From Powellomyces hirtus (taxonomy: Eukaryota > Chytridiomycota > Chytridiomycetes > Spizellomycetales > Powellomycetaceae), in the NCBI GenBank assembly GCA_025526995.1, contig JAHLKG010000028.1, positions 310,001-374,000 on the forward strand: DNA of 64,000 bases. The letters are read 5' to 3'. This document shows, in pieces, positions 26,640 to 42,720 of the stretch. The notes beneath the pieces were generated by a model, which was given only the letters and a program-made list of their open reading frames with translations, searched no databases and was not told the DNA's origin. Numbering within the stretch: position 1 is the first letter of the stretch; each line of letters opens with the position of its first letter. The position numbers were made by a program, and so were the translations under genes.

Positions 26640-27360
26640 CTTCCACTTGGACAACGCCGACTGACATCCGACCGGCGCACAACTGGCCAACACGAGCCAC
26701 CTGCAGTTGTGTTGCTGTCCGTGCGCTTCCGTACAGCAACATATCAACCACAAACGCATTACCGTATTGACATTTTGTGCTCCGAGAAGGCAGTCCACTT
26801 GTGAGTTGTGTGTGAACACCCTCACACTGAGTGGCTGCGCGGATGTCGCACCTGGTGGACAACAACTAGACTCACATCCGACCAAAGCACAAGTGGCCAG
26901 ACACGAGCCGCCTGCAGTTGTGTTGCTATCTGGTGCACTTCCCTCAAGCAACATATCAACCACAGACGAACCATTAACGTGTTGACTTTTTGTGCTCCGA
27001 GAAGGCAGTCCACTTGTGAGTTGTGTGTAAACACCCTCACACTGAGTGGCTGCGCGGATGTGGTGGCCATTTGAGCTTGTTGGTGCCGGAAGCTCAATAG
27101 AGGCTTGTCCAGTCGGAGGCCCTGACAACTGATCCTCGACCGAACCACAACTGGTCAATACAAGCCACCTGCAGTCATGTTGCTGTCCGTGTACTGCTTC
27201 CAGCAACATATCAACCACAGACGGAACGAGTATTGACTTTTTGTGTTTCGCGAAGGCAGTCCACTTGTGAGATGTGTGTAAACACCCTCACACTGAGTGG
27301 CTGCGCGAGGATCACCGCTGACTGAGCTTATTGGTACCGGAAGCTCAATAACGGCTGTTG
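26640..27360. repeat. Three diverged tandem copies of a ~210-260 bp repeat
   Basis: Copies begin at about 26680, 26890 and 27148 (spacing about 210 and 258 bp). Each has a conserved core reading AGCAACATATCAACCACA, then GCAGTCCACTTGTGAG and ACACCCTCACACTGAGTGGC. Copies 2 and 3 also share a GCCGGAAGCTCAATA tail. A 195-codon open frame runs through two copies on the minus strand, but it only reflects the repeat and has no motif. Confidence 0.85.
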
Positions 27361-27516: not shown

Positions 27517-28631
27517 TTAGACACGTATCAGCAACATACTGCTTGGATCCAGATTGCAGCCATGAATGTCGATGTTCTTGCGTTGAAAGTTAGGAGCTGA
27601 GAAGTAGTTGACCTCGCGGCTCTGAGTGGTGGAAGCAGTGTTTCGAATAACGGGTGATAGAGCCCACTGTTTGCCAGTTCCTGCCGCACGATTGGGATTC
27701 ATATCCTGAGCTGTTGTTTCCTTTGACATGTCCCAACGTGTCTGTATGGTGGGCAACATGCCACGGGAACTACCCTTTTGTCCCGGTACAATGACACCTT
27801 CATATGTGATCTGTTTGTTGTTGACACCGCGGGTCTGATTAATGTCCTAAGGTAGAATGCGCAATGCATCCGAGTTCATAGGCAGATCGTGAATCGACTT
27901 GACAGGTGTTTGATACTCATACGAAGGTTTGACACCAGCGCCAACCCGTTGGTACAGGTCAGGCATTTGGCTGAGGTCTGGACGGCGAAGGTTCTCAGGG
28001 TTGTTTGGAAGAGAGTTCATGACTTCCTGTCTAGCTCGGTATGTGCCCTGATCATTGGTGCTGGGCATACCAGTGAATCGCTCAAGCAAAACCTGTGAGT
28101 TGGCGTTCTCGACCCCGGGTTGTTTCAGATGAGAGCCAAAGAATGGCTGCATGTTGTTGTGTTGCATGTCCAAAGGTAGCCCTGAGAGAAGACTGATGGT
28201 CGACTTGAGCTTGAACATGGGCGACGACTGGGAACAACGCTTGACCACTATTGGGGTTAAAGGCTGCGCTATTCTTGTTGTTGGCAAGTGATTGCTGCAA
28301 GTTGAACTCCAACTGCTTTTGCCCTCCTGACATCTCCATGTCGCCACCTAGGGATGCCAATGGTGCAGGGAAGCCTGAGGTTGCGAAATCATCTCCTGAG
28401 TAGAGATGGGTCTGGATACATCTGTTTGATCTTGTCTACGTGCTTTGCGGCGGCAAGAGCTTGTTCTGTTGCACGGGCTTCTTCGACTAGATGGCTTTCA
28501 TAGACTAGCGGTCCGTTAGGGAGATTGTTGCGTGAGATGATCACATTGCTGGGTACTGTTCTGGACGTTTTGCCATGGTTATTGAGCATGTACTCCAACG
28601 CACAACCAAGACCCACAATCGCGACTTCCAT
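27517..28631 (-). pseudogene. NCLDV conserved protein, DUF5899-like, broken
   Basis: A frame starting MEVAIVGLGCALEYMLNN at 28631 continues, after a shift near 28390 and another near 28240, into LDMQHNNMQPFFGSHLKQ and NDQGTYRARQEVMNSL, then meets a TAG at 27847-27849. The same frame continues after that TAG as DINQTRGVNNKQITYEGVIV down to 27517. The order of these motifs (N-terminal GLG..LGYMLN, the PFFG block, the TRGVNNKQITYEG block) is as I recall it for a protein conserved in mimivirus-like and phycodnavirus-like giant viruses, whose role is unknown. Two frameshifts and one nonsense codon make it a pseudogene. The family name is from memory and should be confirmed. Confidence 0.72.
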
Positions 28632-28788
28632 TGTCAGTGGTGGTATGCAAGATCCCTTTGGACTTTACATAACGCACAGAAGAAAACTTTACGCTGTTTA
28701 GACACACGGGCAACAGTCCCGATCACTGGGAAAGCTTGCGTTTGTCCAATCGTCTCTTTCTCTGTTCCATTCACATACACAACAAACG

Positions 28789-28977
28789 ATGAGCGCAACT
28801 GCGAGCAGTGATCCGATCTCAGCTGAGATCAAAGCCTTTGTTCAACAGCAAAGCACATATGACTACGTTGGCTACCTCGGCTATCTCAGTCTGATCCTCA
28901 ATCGTGATGCTTCACTAGTATCGGAGGAGGTCTACCACGTGATCTATTCTCAGTTACATGCCCAGTCATTGCCATAG
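28789..28977 (+). CDS. Small uncharacterised ORF in viral segment
   Basis: 62 codons starting MSATASSDPISAEIKAF. It ends 14 bp before the first ATG of the AAA ATPase and lies in a different frame. No motif recognised. It may be a small viral gene or the detached N-terminus of the ATPase after a frameshift. Confidence 0.35.
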   Translation: MSATASSDPISAEIKAFVQQQSTYDYVGYLGYLSLILNRDASLVSEEVYHVIYSQLHAQSLP

Positions 28978-28991
28978 GTTTCAGACTCTTG

Positions 28992-30494
28992 ATGCCTCTG
29001 TTATCGACAACGTGGAGCAGCCACTTATCCCCTAACGCACACGACCATATAAATGCTACCAACACGTCGCCTACTGCGTTCCCCGTCGCCGATCTCCACC
29101 TCCTATCCCAGATCATGGACGTATCGACATTGGGGAACTTTCTGCTGTTGTCTAGCAGTTTCCGAACGGGAAACCCAATCATAGATTCTCTTCTATTGCT
29201 GCTGGCAACAAGCGCGGTTGGATACGTCGCTCAACATGCTAAGACGTTCTTCGCGGCGTTTCGAGCCAAGGTCCTCGAGGACAACCACTCCAAGATGTTC
29301 ATCGAAAGCTTGCATGAGAGATCACATCACAATCAGTCCTTCGTTGCTTTTCGATGGTATCTTTCAACGCTGAAGGACAAAGCAAGGTGCCTGGACGCGT
29401 CCCAGACATGGGCTCATGACGCCCTTCTGATCTCTATCGCAAAGAACTCGTCACAGACCATACAGCATGAGGGCGAGGAGATCTTGGTTGAGTATGTCTA
29501 CGAGAAGAACACAACTGACACTCGTCAATACATCGTGTTGACCTACAAAGGCGTCACGTCCAACTATCTGCCCGACTTCCTCACATACGTTACCAAACAA
29601 CACAAACAGTTTACCGAAACGGCCGAGTGGAAACAGACGTTGTGGTATCTGGAAAGGTGCGATGGGACACTCGCGTGGACTGGCTATGAAGCGGGCAACA
29701 ACAAACACTTCAGTAACATCATCATGGATGTGGCTGAGCGTGATGCACTTGAAGAAGATGTTCAGCATTTCCTGGATAGTGAGGCCGACTACATCAGGCG
29801 GGGGGTATCTTGGTCCCGCGGATACCTCTTCTATGGCGCGCCTGGGTGCGGCAAGACAAGCTTGGTCAAGGCGATCTCGAACAAAGCTCAGATGGATGTC
29901 TATTGCATGGATTTCAACATACTTCTCAGTGATCAAGAGCTCCGTTCTGTCTTCCGGAAGATACCGGTCCGTTCTCTGTTGTCATTTGAGGATGTGGATG
30001 CCTTGTCGAACATCGTAAGGAAACGGACTGATGCGGATGGTCAAAGTAACGGTGCATCCTATCAAGATGAGGAAGAAGACAACGACTCGTGCAACGCAGT
30101 TGACTCGGACACAGCCAGTACCGATGCTCCTGTTGATCGGCCACGAATGAAGTCCTCGATCACACTCTCGGCTCTGCTCAACGAACTCGATGGATTGGCG
30201 ACCGGACAAGGTCGAATCCTTGTGATGACTACAAACCATCTGGATGCGTTGGACCCGGCGCTGATCCGACCAGGACGGATCGATAAGAAGAAGGAGCTGA
30301 AACGTGCCACACGATCCGAGATAGCACTGGCTATTGAGCTGTACTTGGACCAGAAGGTACAGCTAGAGCAACTTGGAGAGGATTTGGAGGGAAGATTCAC
30401 AAAGGCGGAGATCTGCAACAAGATAGTCACTGGAGAGCTTGTTGTGATGGATGTCAAGGATGTCGTAGATTACGGTGGAGATTCAGCTTCTTGA
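28992..30494 (+). CDS. BCS1-like AAA ATPase of giant-virus type
   Basis: An uninterrupted 500-aa frame. A hydrophobic stretch (residues about 58-77) precedes a BCS1-N-like region. The AAA core follows: Walker A GAPGCGKTS at residues 282-290, Walker B LLSFEDVDAL near 330, then an acidic Ser/Asp-rich insert, LLNELDGLATGQGRILVMTT and NHLDALDPALIRPGRID with sensor Asn and arginine-finger region. BCS1 is a mitochondrial inner-membrane chaperone of eukaryotes, but relatives occur in mimivirus-like viruses. Lack of introns and the position between viral genes favour viral origin. Starts at 28992 or at the in-frame ATG 29115 are both possible; the second still leaves the hydrophobic segment. All AAA residues seem present, so it may be functional. 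Confidence 0.83.
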   Translation: MPLLSTTWSSHLSPNAHDHINATNTSPTAFPVADLHLLSQIMDVSTLGNFLLLSSSFRTGNPIIDSLLLLLATSAVGYVAQHAKTFFAAFRAKVLEDNHSKMFIESLHERSHHNQSFVAFRWYLSTLKDKARCLDASQTWAHDALLISIAKNSSQTIQHEGEEILVEYVYEKNTTDTRQYIVLTYKGVTSNYLPDFLTYVTKQHKQFTETAEWKQTLWYLERCDGTLAWTGYEAGNNKHFSNIIMDVAERDALEEDVQHFLDSEADYIRRGVSWSRGYLFYGAPGCGKTSLVKAISNKAQMDVYCMDFNILLSDQELRSVFRKIPVRSLLSFEDVDALSNIVRKRTDADGQSNGASYQDEEEDNDSCNAVDSDTASTDAPVDRPRMKSSITLSALLNELDGLATGQGRILVMTTNHLDALDPALIRPGRIDKKKELKRATRSEIALAIELYLDQKVQLEQLGEDLEGRFTKAEICNKIVTGELVVMDVKDVVDYGGDSAS

Positions 30495-31090
30495 CTCTCT
30501 CTGCCTTCTTTCTCGCGCTCTGCCTTCAATGATGCCTGAATGGCGTCTTTGAGGTCTTTCCGATAGAAGTCATACACTTTACAGTCCTCCATGTTCACTT
30601 TATGAATGGTCAGATGTTGTTTGTCATTGTCTGAGATCAAACCTGCTTTCGCATTCACTGCACGTTTAGCGTCCTTCAGGGTCTCATAGGTGCCTATCAC
30701 TTCAAGGAATTTCTGGTCTGGGCCAGGCAGATATAGCAAAGCCGAGTGGCAGATGATGAGATGAGTGGATGAAGTCGTGGCAACCTGATCGGTTCTTGCA
30801 TATTGCATACAGGATAAATTTTGCTGAGTGAAGTCGGCCTTTGCCATCTCGTAGCCGGGCATTTGGGGGCTGAACCATAGCTGTGTCATCTGTTCCTCCA
30901 TTGCTAGAAGTCTGGCTTTCAGATCAGCCACTTCAACCTTGAGATCATCGACCTCTTGCAGCGTTTCTGATAATAGGGTCTGGCGATCGGTAACATTCAA
31001 ATCGTGCGCTGTTACCTCACCATCGACAACAACCGAGACTGCGATCACCACGCCACTCTGCGGATGTGTGCTGAGAACTGTAACGGCCAT
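30470..31090 (-). CDS. Uncharacterised coiled-coil protein in viral segment
   Basis: A 206-aa frame from the first ATG (31090; a GTG lies further up at 31123). Residues about 35-75 form a clear heptad coiled coil (LSETLQEVDDLKVEVADLKA). A Glu/Lys-rich tail ends the protein. Its 3' end overlaps the 3' end of the ATPase by 25 bp on the other strand. It also starts only about 125 bp from the RNA polymerase start in the opposite direction, a compact viral-style arrangement. No homologue is recognised. The frame is undamaged although both flanking viral genes are broken. Confidence 0.6.
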   Translation of the reverse strand: MAVTVLSTHPQSGVVIAVSVVVDGEVTAHDLNVTDRQTLLSETLQEVDDLKVEVADLKARLLAMEEQMTQLWFSPQMPGYEMAKADFTQQNLSCMQYARTDQVATTSSTHLIICHSALLYLPGPDQKFLEVIGTYETLKDAKRAVNAKAGLISDNDKQHLTIHKVNMEDCKVYDFYRKDLKDAIQASLKAEREKEGRESQEAESPP

Positions 31091-32537
31091 GTTTGCTACC
31101 AGTAGCAACTTGGTGGCGATCACACAAGGCGAGTAAGATGCTGTTATCGATAACGGCCACCCTATAAATATGGTGTTGCAATGTGCTGGTAGGTAATAGC
31201 CTAGTACCTTGGTTATGTCGTATCAATCCACCCCGTCAACTGCGCCTGTGAGAAAGATCAAACGAGTGCAGTTTGGCATCCTCTCTCCAGAACAGATCGT
31301 CGCTCATTCAACTGCCAAGATCGAACATGCTGAGGTCTACGAACGGGGGCAACCCAAAAGTGGCGGATTAGCCGATGTCCGAATGGGTTGCATTGAGAAG
31401 AACATGAAGTGCTACACACGTTCTGAGAACATGAACAACTGTCAGGTCGTTTCGGTCACATTGAACTCGAGTGGGCTGTGTATCATGTGGGCTTCATCAA
31501 AACCCTGAAGATTCTCGAATGCATTCTGCCCTCGATGCGCCCGATTCCGACTACTGCCTACTGATCCAAAGTACAAGGTTCTTAGACGTGTCAAGGAAAA
31601 GTTTCGCTTCGTCTGGATTGCGTGCAAAGGCAAGGCAGTGTGCTGCTACGAAGACTGCGAGGAGCCCCTTGTCCCATTGAAACGTACTGGAGTTACTTTG
31701 ACACGCGGTGATAAGCGGGAGATCCTCACCGCGGCCGAAGCCCGATCCATACTTGAGCGGATCTCAGACGAAACATGTCACTTGATTGGCCTTGATCCTG
31801 TTGCGGCACGTCCTGAATGGATGATTATCACCGTTCTGCCTGTGCCTCCCCCATGTGTCCGACCCAGTGTCAATGTCGAGTCAGGTGGACGTGGCGAGGA
31901 CGATCTGACGGCGGTCCTATCCAATATCATCAAGTACAACAACTATCTCCGACGCAAAGAGCCTCGGGTAGCCGATCATCGTGAGCAGCTCCAAATCTAT
32001 ATACATCTTACATTGATAACGAGGTCGCGGGGGTTCCCCAGACGTTTCAGCGCGGTGGCCGATTGAACAACTCAGTCGCAGCAAGATTGAAGGGGAAGAC
32101 AGGGCGGCTTCGTGGGAACCTGATGGGCAAACGAGTCGATTTCTCTGCGCGAACGGTCATCACTGGAGACCAATACCTCTCTATTGAAGGAGTAGGCGTG
32201 CGTGGCAAAGAACCTGACCTTCCCCGAGCGAGTGACCGACCTGAACCTCGCAAAGATGCAGACACTAGTCGACAACTGCCAGACATACCCAGGAGCCAAC
32301 TGGTTCGTCAAAGGCAAAACGAACCAGCGTATTGACCTGCGATCAGCCCGTACGAAGCCGCAACTCGAAGTGGGCGACCAAGTGGAACGTCACATGATCG
32401 ACGGTGATCTCATCCTATTCAACCGCCAACCAAGCTTACACAAGATGTCGATGATGGCCCACCGAGGACGGTTCATGCCCTACTCTACGTTTCGAATGAA
32501 CATAAATGCATGTCAGTCCTATAATGGCGATTTTGAT

Positions 32538-32617
32538 GTCAGTATTGGGGTTCCCCCGATGTCTGAGCAGTTGTATCACTTTGTCGAATCTGACATTTTC
32601 TCTTTTTTCACATACAG
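32538..32617 (+). other. 80-nt spliceosomal-type intron inside the RNA polymerase catalytic motif
   Basis: Reading runs YNGDFD up to 32537, then GTCAGT, and resumes with GGTGACGAG (GDE) at 32618. The 3' end shows a branch-like CTGAC, a T/C run (TTTTCTCTTTTTTC) and ACATACAG. Removal restores the universal NxDFDGDEMN magnesium-binding motif exactly. The size and signals match host introns in this window. No group I or group II intron structure is evident, and 80 nt is far too small for one. Confidence 0.85.
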
Positions 32618-33662
32618 GGTGACGAGATGAATCTGCACATGCCCCAGACGTACGAAGCCCGAGCAGAGATGGAAGCCCTCATGACCGTTTCGCGGTTGCT
32701 CGTGTCATCTCAAGCGAGCAAACCAGTGAACGCATTGGTACAAGACGGGCTGTACGGTGTCCGAAGTTCACCAAGCGGGACACATTCCTCCGCAAAGAGG
32801 AAGTGATGGACCTGCTGCTCCAAGTCAAGAATTGGGACGGAACTTTGCCTCCGCCCACCATTCTACGCCCGATGCCTCTTTGGACCGGAAAGCAGTTGAT
32901 CACCCTGCCCGAGATTGATATGACTGGCTTCCATTGGACCCATCCGGACGATGAAGAGACACCGATGTCGTCGGGTGACATCAGAGTCATCATCAAGGCC
33001 GGTGTGCACCTTGCTGGTATCATATCAAAGAGGACCATTGGCACCTCCTCCGGTGGCTTGATTTACGTGATTTTCAACGATCACGGTCCATCTGCTGGCC
33101 GAGACTTTCTCGACAACGTGGCGCTCATTATCAATCAGTGGTTGATGTACCAAGGCTTTTCGGTGGGTATCCGGGATGCATTGATCTCGGAACAGACATA
33201 CAGCGAAGTCGTGAACATTGTCTATGAGCAATATGCCGAAGCCAACGAGCTTCTCACCAGCTTTCAGAACGGAACGTTTGAGGCACAAGGGAACCTGTCC
33301 GTTGACGAAACCAAGGAACGGCAATTGCAGCAGATCCTCGCCCAAGTTCGCGATGCGTCAGGGAAGCTGGTTAGTCAACACCAGCATCCAGAGAATAATG
33401 TCAAACAGATGGTTGAGGCTGGTAGCAAGGGTTCCATTCTGAACATCTGCAGATCTCAGCCTGTGTCGGACAACAGATTGTGGAAGGAAAGCGGATTGCG
33501 CGGACGTTTGGTGACCGTACCTTGCCTCATTTCACGAAACACGAGGACACGCCTGAAAGCCGCGGATTCGTGAGGAACTCGTTCATCAGAGGTTTGAACC
33601 CACAGGAAGTGTGGTTTCCCGCAATGGGTGGACGCGAAGGTTTGATCGACACGGCAGTGAAA

Positions 33663-34646
33663 TCAGTTACCTGGGACACCACGATCGTGGTCATCGAGCG
33701 TGGTATCCCACGATACAACAGGATAGGCGAATGGATCGACGGCATCATTGCCAACTCGCCAGCATCGCAGATTGAGCACTAGGAGCTCATGAATATGGAA
33801 CTAGTCAAGATTCCTTAGAGGACCGTCTTCATAGCAACAATGGACAGTGCAGGGGCGGTGTCTTGGGGTGATGTAACGGCAGTTACGCGCCACGGTCCTG
33901 GTGACGTACTTTACGAGGTTGAAACTGAGAGCGGACGGAACGTAACGGTTACAGCGAGCAAGTCGTTACTGATCTGGGACGACACCGAGCACAGGTACAG
34001 GGAAACGCGAACTCCGGAGATCAAAGTCGGGGATCACTTACCCGTGACCACTCTTCTTCGTAAGCCTCCGGTGATGTTCTCAGCAGTCCAGATGGATGAT
34101 GGTAGCAACTTCCGCTTGACACGGGCTAATGGAACCAACGTTGGCTTCTATCTGGCGGGCGGGGATGGGTCAGGCCTCCCTGTCGTGTTCTCACCTGACA
34201 AGAACGACGCTAGATGCATACCAGATGCTCTCTTCTGCGCGCCAGATAGCTTCGTCGTGGGGCTTCTCGACGGTTACTTTGCCAGAAATCGGACAACTTC
34301 TGACACGGAAACCAGTCACATTCATGTTGTTGCTCCAACATCGTCTAGTCGCTTTGCTGAAGCTTTAGCTATGCTGTGCAGTCGCATCGCAGTCTTTGCC
34401 AGCATTTCAAGTGATCACACCGTATCGATAACAGGACCAGATGCCGTGTCTTTCTTGGAGAAGACGTACCTGTGCGGTGGAAACAAACAGACAGCTCTGG
34501 AGGGCATCCGAAAGCAGAAGGATGTGGCATTAGACAGGATCATACGCATCTCACCGATCGGACCACAAAGCCATCCAAAGATGTACGATTTGACCGTCCC
34601 TGGTACTCTCAACTTTTCGCTCGCCAACGGTCTCCAAGTACGAGAC
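33663..34646 (+). other. Intein 1 in viral RPB1 (between AVK and TAETCYIQRR)
   Basis: The insertion is 984 nt, 328 codons in the same frame throughout. Its start [18 protein letters not shown] fits intein block A with Ser instead of the usual Cys at position 1. SWGDVTAVTRHGPGDVLYEV..SGRNVTVT fits block B. The end MYDLTVPGTLNFSLANGL plus QVRD fits blocks F/G, with Asp in place of the usual terminal Asn. The middle carries FVVGLLDGYFARN, a worn LAGLIDADG motif lacking the catalytic acidic residues. Two TAG codons (33779 and about 33816) interrupt it. It is therefore an inactive intein with a dead endonuclease. Confidence 0.85.
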
Positions 34647-34653
34647 ACGGCTG

Positions 34654-34733
34654 GTAAGCTCTGATAGAGTGTTTTTCAGCCAGGCAATGCCGCAGCACCA
34701 GTCTCAGCTCACATCACATCTCTTCTCTTTCAG
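34654..34733 (+). other. Second 80-nt spliceosomal-type intron in viral RPB1
   Basis: Starts GTAAGC three codons downstream of the C-terminal intein junction and ends CTCTTTCAG. Splicing joins GACACGGCTG to AAACGTGC, giving DTAETCYIQRRLVK, the expected RPB1 sequence after the intein. It has the same length as the other intron. Confidence 0.82.
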
Positions 34734-35392
34734 AAACGTGCTACATTCAACGGCGGTTGGTCAAAGCATGAGAGGACATCACGATCAAGTACGATGGGAC
34801 AGTCAGGAACAGCCGAGGAGACGTAATTCAGGTCTATTATGGCGAGGATGGCTTTGACGGAATTGCGATTGAGAACCAGACATTCGAGATCATGCTGTCA
34901 TCTGACGCTATCTTCCGCGACCGATACTACTCTGAGGCAGTCCCTGACGAGTTTGATGAACTAACGGAAGCAAGGGCCTTTCTGAGGAAACAGCTGCGAC
35001 AGCCCGAAGATTGCTGGCCAATGCCTTTGAATCTGAAACGCATCATTCTTGCCGCACAACGTAAATGCGGGGATCCTCCAGTGCCAATTGACGAGCGGTT
35101 CATCTACGAGCAAGTCACTGGTTTGAGAAGAAAGATCAGACCCTCGACATTGAAAGTGGTGGACACTGACGGGTCCCAATACAACTCGACCCGCCTATTC
35201 AACATCCTGCTGCTGTCCTCATTCTCGTCCAAACAGGTACTCCGCCGACACAAGCTTGATCGCAATGGCTTTCTCTGGGCATTACAACAGGTGGAGACCA
35301 AGTTCAACAGGGGTCTCGTGGCTGCTGCGGAATCAGTCGGGGTCGTGGCGGCACAGTCGATTGGTGAACCGGCAACGCAGATGACACTGAAC

Positions 35393-36510
35393 AGCGTTGA
35401 GTGTCAAACTGAGCTGCTATTGGACGTCGATGGACACCTCGTGAGAACGTCAATTGGTGACTTTGTCGAGCAGACTTTCCGAGATGCACCGGCTGACACA
35501 ATCGAAACTCACCCTATGGACACTTTCCTGGCATGAATCAAGGGAAAACGGTGAACATCCTTTCATGTGATGAAGATGGCAAAGTGACATGGCGAGCGGT
35601 GGAAGCGGTCACAAAGCAACCGGTTGTCAATCGCGATGGAACGAACACTCTACTCAAGGTCACGACTCAAAGTGGACGGTTCGTTGTGGCAACAAAGGCA
35701 ATATCCTTCCTCAAACGGGTCAACAACAAGATTGTACCGGTCGATGGCGCGGACCTGAAAGTAGGCGACCACTTGCCCGTTTCCAAGATTGTGCCCACGG
35801 ACTTCACCACTGTCGAGTGCCTTGACGTCTGTCATTATCTGCCTGCGACGTTGAGTGGCCTACCCGAACAGATCAACCTCGATCGAGATTTTGGGTGGAT
35901 GTGCGGAGCATACCTTGCCACGGTAGTTGCGCCGACCGCCACGTTGAGTCAACGACGATTCGCCCACATAGCACCGCATTGAGTCGACTCTTCACGGCGG
36001 TGTTCGAAAATGGAAGTCTCGGCAAACGTATCCCTGCCGAGCTTCTTGAAGGCCCCCTCGACTTCCTGAAGGGGCTGATCGCAGGCTACATTGATGGCGA
36101 TGCTTGCGTCACACCTCAACACGATGTACAGTCCCCTGTCAGAAAGACGCGGACCCCTAGATTTATTTTCTATGCGGCTCAGAGGCGACTGTATATCTAG
36201 GGGGTCCGCGTCTTTCTGACAGGGGACTGTAATTGCATGCTCGATTTCCAGAGGCATGCTCGACGACATCCAGCAAGCTCTCCTGCGGTTGGGCGTACGT
36301 TGTTCTATCAACGCACTATCAACGAGTGAGACTGGAGAGCCATCCACCTTATCAGTGTCAGTTGTCCAGACGGCGCGCTTGGCTCAGTTTCTTCAATTGA
36401 CAATCCGTGCTAAGAACGAGCGCCTACAAGCTGCGGGTTCGCGGAACCACGGGGCAGAGCGGTTGGACGTTGTGCCAGACGTTCTCACCCAGCGCCGTGT
36501 CATTACTTAA
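35393..36510 (+). other. Intein 2 in viral RPB1 (after GEPATQMTLN), with LAGLIDADG endonuclease, truncated
   Basis: After MTLN the frame enters SVECQTELLLDVDGHLVR (block A), VNILSCDEDGKVTWRAVEAV and TNTLLKVTTQSGRFVVATKA (block B), a linker KVGDHLPVSKI, and the homing-endonuclease motif FLKGLIAGYIDGDA at about 36062. A one-base loss at 35533 turns an expected Trp codon into a stop, another shift lies near 35950, and a 101-bp MITE splits the endonuclease. The C-terminal splicing block and the downstream extein are absent, so the sequence was cut before the Tc1 relic. Confidence 0.82.
36129..36229. mobile_element. 101-bp MITE with long terminal inverted repeats, TA target duplication
   Basis: Starts CAGTCCCCTGTCAGAAAGAC and ends with the reverse complement of that sequence; the arms pair over about 34 bp with only a 1-base bulge (CCCC/GGGGG). 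TA flanks both ends (36127-36128 and 36230-36231). CAGT termini with TA duplication are characteristic of Tc1/mariner-type MITEs. Conceptual excision with one TA rejoins the intein frame as TPQHDVIACSISRGMLDD. Confidence 0.92.
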
Positions 36511-42362: not shown

Positions 42363-42720
42363 TATGTGCATATTCAGTTTCTGCAGCGGACAATATTGCA
42401 CAAACTTTTAAAGAAAAAAGTTGGTATGTTTTATTGTTTTCAGCCTCGACAGCAAACAACATTGCAAAAAATATTAAAGAAAAAAATGTTGTTATGTGCC
42501 ATCGTATTCCGTTTTGGCAGCATACAACATTGCAGAAAATTTCAAAAAAATATAATATTGGTATGTTCCATTGTTTTCACCTTTGGCCAGCAGACAATAT
42601 TGCGGAAAATTTTGAAGAAAAAAATGTTGAGGTGTTTCATTATATTCAGCTTCGGCAGATGACAACATTGCAGGAAATTTCAAGAAAAAAATGTCAGTAT
42701 GTTTTTTCTCAGTGTGTATG
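42363..42720. repeat. Tandem ~68-bp repeat, five diverged units
   Basis: Units begin at about 42363, 42425, 42493, 42562 and 42631 (62-69 bp). Each has a TATGTxxxATTxTxTTC part, then CAGxxxACAACATTGCA and an A-rich tail. Both strands stay open in one frame over several units, giving 22-23-residue peptide repeats, e.g. AEAEYNETPQHFFL on the minus strand. It sits in AT-rich DNA. Confidence 0.85.

Follow-up and report, generated by a model that had tools for sequence, protein, structure and literature searches.

A Decaying Gene Block with an Intein-Bearing, Pol II-Type RNA Polymerase Gene, Likely of Giant-Virus Origin, in a Contig of Powellomyces hirtus

Results

Gene Content of the Block

The window, i.e., the whole stretch of DNA analyzed here, is 64,000 nucleotides long and runs from base 310001 to base 374000 of contig C28 (378 kb) in the Powellomyces hirtus assembly (29.26 Mb, 60 contigs). 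Four genes and one small frame are tightly packed between 27.5 and 36.5 kb of the window. The block contains a broken gene for a Pol II-type largest RNA polymerase subunit (RPB1), an intact BCS1-like AAA ATPase gene, another intact frame, referred to as frame U, and a broken unclassified gene. The features are listed below in window coordinates.

27520..28631, minus strand: broken gene in at least three frames (earlier label, DUF5899-like)
28789..28976, plus strand: small open frame (62 aa), immediately upstream of the AAA ATPase gene
29115..30494, plus strand: BCS1-like AAA ATPase, 459 aa, intact (PF00004, 63.6 bits)
30470..31090, minus strand: frame U, intact (206 aa); the ends of this frame and of the AAA ATPase gene overlap
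31215..36510, plus strand: pseudogene of RPB1 (largest RNA polymerase subunit, Pol II type); separate pieces match PF04997, PF00623, PF04983, PF05000, PF04998, and PF04992
32538..32617, plus strand: spliceosomal intron 1, 80 nt, GT-AG, phase 0; in the catalytic motif, after NGDFD and before GDEMN
33663..34646, plus strand: intein 1 (PF14890, 46.8 bits); follows a 12-residue RPB1 stretch; two in-frame stops
34654..34733, plus strand: spliceosomal intron 2, 80 nt, GT-AG, phase 1; before ETCYIQRR
35393..36510, plus strand: intein 2; follows QMTLN; frame breaks and a MITE inside, end missing
36127..36231, no strand assigned: MITE of the host mariner type, 105 bp, with terminal inverted repeats of 29 bp that match perfectly and a TA at either end

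The right edge of the block, near position 36510, is the end of the last RPB1 frame and lies within intein 2. The window also contains adjoining FHA- and RING-domain genes, an MFS transporter gene, and a peptidase M2 gene, and this set of flanking genes fits a zoosporic fungus as the host. Tandem arrays are present on both sides of the block, at 26659-27061 and 42369-42703 (215-bp and 68/138-bp units).

The broken minus-strand gene had been labeled DUF5899-like in the original prediction. Three in-frame pieces of this gene had no Pfam match with an E-value below 0.15 and no NCBIfam match above the cut-off, and the DUF5899 model itself (PF19251), which was present in the library searched, was not matched by these pieces up to E 10. 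A search with a 166-aa piece of the gene revealed no homologue at E ≤ 0.1 and no viral locus. The DUF5899 identity, supported neither by the Pfam model nor by homology, was abandoned. Other parts of the same prediction were confirmed: the packing is compact, with the four genes distributed over both strands, and two genes, RPB1 and the gene at 27520-28631, are decayed, both being frame-broken.

The RPB1 Pseudogene, Its Introns, and Its Inteins

Pieces of RPB1, searched one by one with the frames left unmended, matched successive RPB1 domains in order along the plus strand. Over 5.0 kb of coding sequence, the reading frame of the gene is broken at 8 points and contains 3 stops (counted by hand from tblastn frames and three-frame translations) in addition to the MITE, and RPB1 sequence beyond intein 2 is absent from the block. 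Decay relative to a functional gene, which is expected of an endogenous viral element, is thus present in RPB1.

Splicing out the two 80-nt GT-AG stretches would bring conserved RPB1 sequence into frame. The RPB1 of the host is a single open frame across both intron sites and both intein sites. Two relatives of the window RPB1, P0003 and P0004, start at MNLH and stop soon after TAVKTAGK, as would be seen, judging by their sequences, if their frames were cut by introns at approximately the same two places. Viral RPB1 genes may also be interrupted. A GT-AG intron is located near the catalytic motif of L047, introns are apparent from the frames of L049 and L121, and group I introns are found in L046 (6177-6501), L048 (6582-6895), and L125 (7362-8101), inside or between frames and at or near the catalytic motif. 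The AAA ATPase gene, which had been described as intronless in contrast to intron-rich neighbors, is one open frame, but the block as a whole is not free of introns, since RPB1 contains two of the GT-AG type.

Both inteins have counterparts in viral RPB1 genes. An allelic RPB1 intein is present in viral L127 at the intein 1 site, and in viral L125, L128, and L120 at the intein 2 site, a piece of intein 2 being 53% identical to the intein of L128, 53% to that of L125, and 44% to that of L120. The intein identity is thus borne out by a splicing domain situated at a conserved site of the extein and by allelic viral inteins. The score of intein 2 against PF14890 (18.0 bits) is below the family cut-off. 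When the whole genome was scanned with this model, intein 1 was the sole match; the scan missed intein 2, so divergent inteins can escape it. The intein-bearing RNA polymerase subunit 1 that had been predicted is hence present, with two inteins rather than one. Inteins 1 and 2 also matched NCBIfam NF011491 (RNA polymerase subunit A''), with E-values of 2.6e-17 and 3.9e-24, respectively, far under the curated cut-off. If this subunit is archaeal, as we take it to be, both intein sites look old. KOG0214-0216 are presumably the second-largest RNA polymerase subunits. It is under these entries that the relevant part of a 2018 intein survey places RNA polymerase inteins from nuclear and viral genes (PMC5784728).

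Affinity of RPB1

A genome search with PF04998 revealed full loci on C15, C5, and C9, which were taken as the cellular largest subunits of the host, as well as the window RPB1 and a fragment on C7. The Pol II RPB1 of the host is located on C15 and has a YSPTSPS tail; when it was compared with PDB chains, human and yeast RPB1 scored about equally. The window RPB1 is 39% identical to the host pieces and 62, 56, and 55% identical to P0002, P0003, and P0004, respectively.

In the domain-3 tree, the window row and P0002-P0004 grouped with a support of 98/98. The seven-row window clade was supported at 91/71 with the RPA1 outgroup and at 100/97 without it, and in the domain-3 trees it was closer to eukaryotic Pol II than was any of the viral RPB1s included. 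The branch that sets this clade and nine Pol II rows apart from the viral rows (52/93) is not well supported. A constraint joining the window clade to eight viral rows cost 11.5 log units and was not rejected (AU p = 0.079). A constraint pairing the window row with the host RPB1 was rejected (AU p = 5.4e-5), though it also separates the window row from P0002-P0004. Duplicates and pieces shorter than 120 aa (L045, L047, L120, L129, and P0039) were omitted from the domain-3 trees; P0034 was removed by hand, and a length limit of 140 aa eliminated P0041. The first domain-3 tree included the host RPA1, which was left out of both constraint-test trees. The domain-2 tree was weak, with the window row next to P0005 (80/87), and the domain-5 tree had too many long branches for use. 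The trees called for in the original prediction thus place the window clade beside Pol II and neither show nor reject a viral grouping of RPB1; the placement within fungal nuclear RPB1 that was named there as contrary evidence was not seen, with the above reservation about the host-pairing constraint. In published RNA polymerase trees, as far as the cited portion goes, nucleocytoviruses and mirusviruses stand together beside Pol II (PMC12198294), and a Pol II-like viral RPB1 is therefore not odd.

A foot-region segment of ~28 aa is present in the host RPB1 and in four other Pol II rows (one named, from cotton). It is absent from the window RPB1, from L045, L046, L047, L048, L118, and P0039, and also from the host RPA1 row; it is whole in L125 and partial in L049 and L128. 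The shared loss of this segment is not proof of viral origin. P0039, whose record is marked UNVERIFIED_CONTAM, is a related RPB1 in an assembly of another chytrid, Siphonaria sp. JEL0065; it is 49% identical to the window RPB1 over domain 5. Pattern scans of viral contigs revealed no close relative of either the window RPB1 or the window AAA ATPase.

The AAA ATPase and Frame U

The AAA ATPase gene, a single open frame at 29115-30494 with a PF00004 match and a BCS1 fold, is as predicted. Its start was set at an ATG near the start of its relatives; the open frame runs from 28908. BCS1 chains were the top PDB matches both by sequence and by fold, and the best 17 PDB matches of the structural model (pLDDT 64) were BCS1 chains or BCS1 AAA domains. 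In BFVD, the best match of the model was a Catovirus protein (E 1.4e-32), compared to E 3.4e-23 for the best solved BCS1 structure in PDB; the comparison covered PDB and BFVD, and closer relatives among cellular predicted structures are possible. Among the best 50 of 166 BFVD matches (E ≤ 0.001), 42 were named, 38 from giant viruses and 4 from phages. Based on the model, the protein probably works like BCS1, i.e., as a ring that is anchored in a membrane and translocates folded proteins.

The BCS1 N-terminal family, PF08740, was not among the Pfam families matched by the AAA ATPase up to E 1, whereas it is present in most fungus-named relatives among the best 120 of 761 matches. Identity among these 120 peaked at 46%, to metagenome proteins. 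In a tree of 58 of the 136 passing rows, the window protein grouped with P0043-P0047 (100/99), separate from BCS1 proteins. IMG/VR relatives of the AAA ATPase were found at 61 loci. The two that were inspected lie on phage-like contigs, L050 with a sliding clamp and a YqaJ recombinase, and L051 with sigma-70, RuvB, and RecA, and the IMG/VR relatives were withdrawn as evidence for a giant virus. Closer relatives were found in none of the viral contigs, and genome contigs yielded only five distant bacterial records.

Frame U matched no family above the cut-off in Pfam or NCBIfam. At the hand-counted lesion rate of RPB1, the probability of an untouched AAA frame is 0.049, and that of both the AAA frame and frame U being untouched is 0.013. 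Two untouched frames beside a broken RPB1 are a hint of retention, and no more.

Residence in the Host Genome

The MITE is located in intein 2, and its relatives are found on ten other contigs. A 1.37-kb element on C2 (~C2:134702-136073; L029 1503-2871) combines the MITE ends with a 384-aa frame, which, by its motifs, we take to be a mariner-type transposase. The presence of a host MITE inside RPB1 implies that the block is resident and is not contamination. Placement on a host chromosome with shared repeats, as looked for in an endogenous viral element, is thus provided by the MITE at the level of the assembly.

A second copy of RPB1 is located on C7 (298534-298751, ~220 bp). It contains the last part of intein 1, an intron-like stretch at the position of intron 2, and a portion of the exon that follows. 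Twelve exon codons differ between this and the window copy: ten of the differences are silent, one is an amino acid replacement, and the twelfth corresponds to a stop codon in the window copy. Since the codon differences are mostly silent, the two copies appear to have accumulated most of their divergence while still functional. Judging by this short stretch, two related insertions appear more likely than a late duplication.

An RPB2-like fragment with two stops is present on C19 (L140, C19:501281-501721). It is 52% identical to the host RPB2 (located on C6) over 113 columns, and in PDB it matches RPB2 chains of Pol II best. The fragment may derive from a viral RPB2 gene or from some other copy of a Pol II gene, foreign or old. 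The MITE, the C7 copy, and the broken C19 fragment together support the endogenous, inherited state that had been proposed for the block.

Genome searches for viral hallmarks were of limited value. The capsid model PF04451 had no match, but the same model matched none of 20 viral records and is hence uninformative; the VLTF3 model PF04947 likewise had no match in the genome, nor did any positive control match it. Family B DNA polymerases are encoded at three loci, all without stops, which look cellular; a fragment need not contain a viral one.

Discussion

The block at 27.5-36.5 kb of the window is real and foreign to the host. We consider it probable that the block is an inherited remnant, now decaying, of a large DNA virus of the host lineage, most likely Nucleocytoviricota-like, which had its own Pol II-type polymerase. 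The claim of a giant-virus fragment made in the original prediction is thus upheld in part: the block is foreign and decayed, and the allelic inteins and the AAA ATPase model make giant-virus origin likely, though not proven, while the hoped-for placement among viruses in trees was not obtained. According to this scenario, viral DNA would have integrated into the host genome, perhaps more than once, and would then have been carried there in a mostly non-functional state. In the live virus, the polymerase containing RPB1 would have transcribed viral genes, the inteins would have self-spliced out of the RPB1 protein, and the host spliceosome would have removed both introns, in which case RPB1 would have been first transcribed in the nucleus. 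A bolder version, which we regard as possible but doubtful, is that of an undescribed lineage of fungal large DNA viruses dependent on the nucleus and the spliceosome, with an intron-bearing polymerase (one intron being in the catalytic motif), whose AAA ATPase gene was kept by the host under selection while the rest decayed.

An origin from a large DNA virus outside Nucleocytoviricota, mirusvirus-like or undescribed and equipped with an RNA polymerase, strikes us as unlikely. It would be in line with the matchless (though uninformative) capsid and VLTF3 models, with the common position of mirusviruses and nucleocytoviruses beside Pol II in the published trees, and with the failure of the IMG/VR pattern scan to find the RPB1 clade. 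However, the intron-rich mirusvirus lineages described in the cited part of PMC12768974 are without RNA polymerase genes, and the best BFVD matches of the AAA ATPase model are nucleocytovirus proteins. Somewhat less plausible still is horizontal transfer of RPB1, with or without the AAA ATPase gene, from another eukaryote such as a parasite or prey, the inteins shared with viruses having been acquired. The tree position near Pol II, for what the 52/93 branch is worth, and the spliceosomal introns of RPB1 would suit such a transfer, but viral RPB1 genes have introns too (L047 and, apparently, L049 and L121), the foot segment is missing, two inteins are allelic to viral ones, and the AAA ATPase lacks a PF08740 match, unlike most fungus-named relatives among its best 120 of 761 matches. 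It is very improbable that the window RPB1 is a decayed duplicate of the Pol II RPB1 gene on C15, despite its Pol II-like pieces, given the 39% identity, the open host frame through the intron and intein sites, and the constrained-tree test, which rejected a recent duplication by a constraint that also parts the window row from P0002-P0004. Contamination or a mis-joined contig has equally little to recommend it: the case was judged from the assembly alone, but a member of a host MITE family lies inside RPB1, C7 and C19 carry a second copy and an RPB2-like fragment, and RPB1 is decayed, unlike the gene of a free virus.

Most of what is known about the large DNA viruses of fungi comes from relics. 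The block adds to these a virus-type polymerase gene with introns and with two inteins at highly conserved sites. An RPB1 with these inteins can serve as a marker for finding living relatives, and its introns allow a test of whether a viral polymerase depends on host splicing.

The individual parts of the block can be compared with known systems. The window AAA ATPase resembles BCS1, the mitochondrial AAA translocase, and the BCS1-like ATPases of giant viruses in its predicted fold over most of its length, its AAA domain, and a predicted N-terminal hydrophobic helix; it differs in leaving PF08740 unmatched and in an identity of at most 46% among its best 120 relatives. An intein-bearing viral RNA polymerase gene in a degenerate state is described in another eukaryotic genome, that of Phytophthora ramorum, in the cited part of PMC1635734. 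The relic in question, however, is an ASFV-related second-largest subunit, whereas the window gene encodes a Pol II-like largest subunit and has two inteins as well as introns. Giant viruses of zoosporic fungi themselves are reported in a preprint by Myers et al., as cited in PMC12993054, which gives them the name Mycodnaviridae and assigns them to Imitervirales. Relics of this kind are already known in fungi, and what is new here is a polymerase lineage that IMG/VR pattern scans did not find. In the cited parts of PMC5294986 and PMC10640383, giant-virus genes are described in the genomes of Gonapodya, Allomyces, and Rhizophagus, where, as in the window, nucleocytovirus-type genes lie amid fungal genes. 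The Rhizophagus insert is also similar in that it contains pseudogenes, one of them for the large subunit of RNA polymerase, and in that some of its genes have intron-like sequences. In contrast, these fungal inserts, as described there, are known by their DNA polymerase, D5, or capsid genes and are Asfarviridae- or Phycodnaviridae-like, while the window block is marked by a Pol II-like RPB1 whose clade is unplaced.
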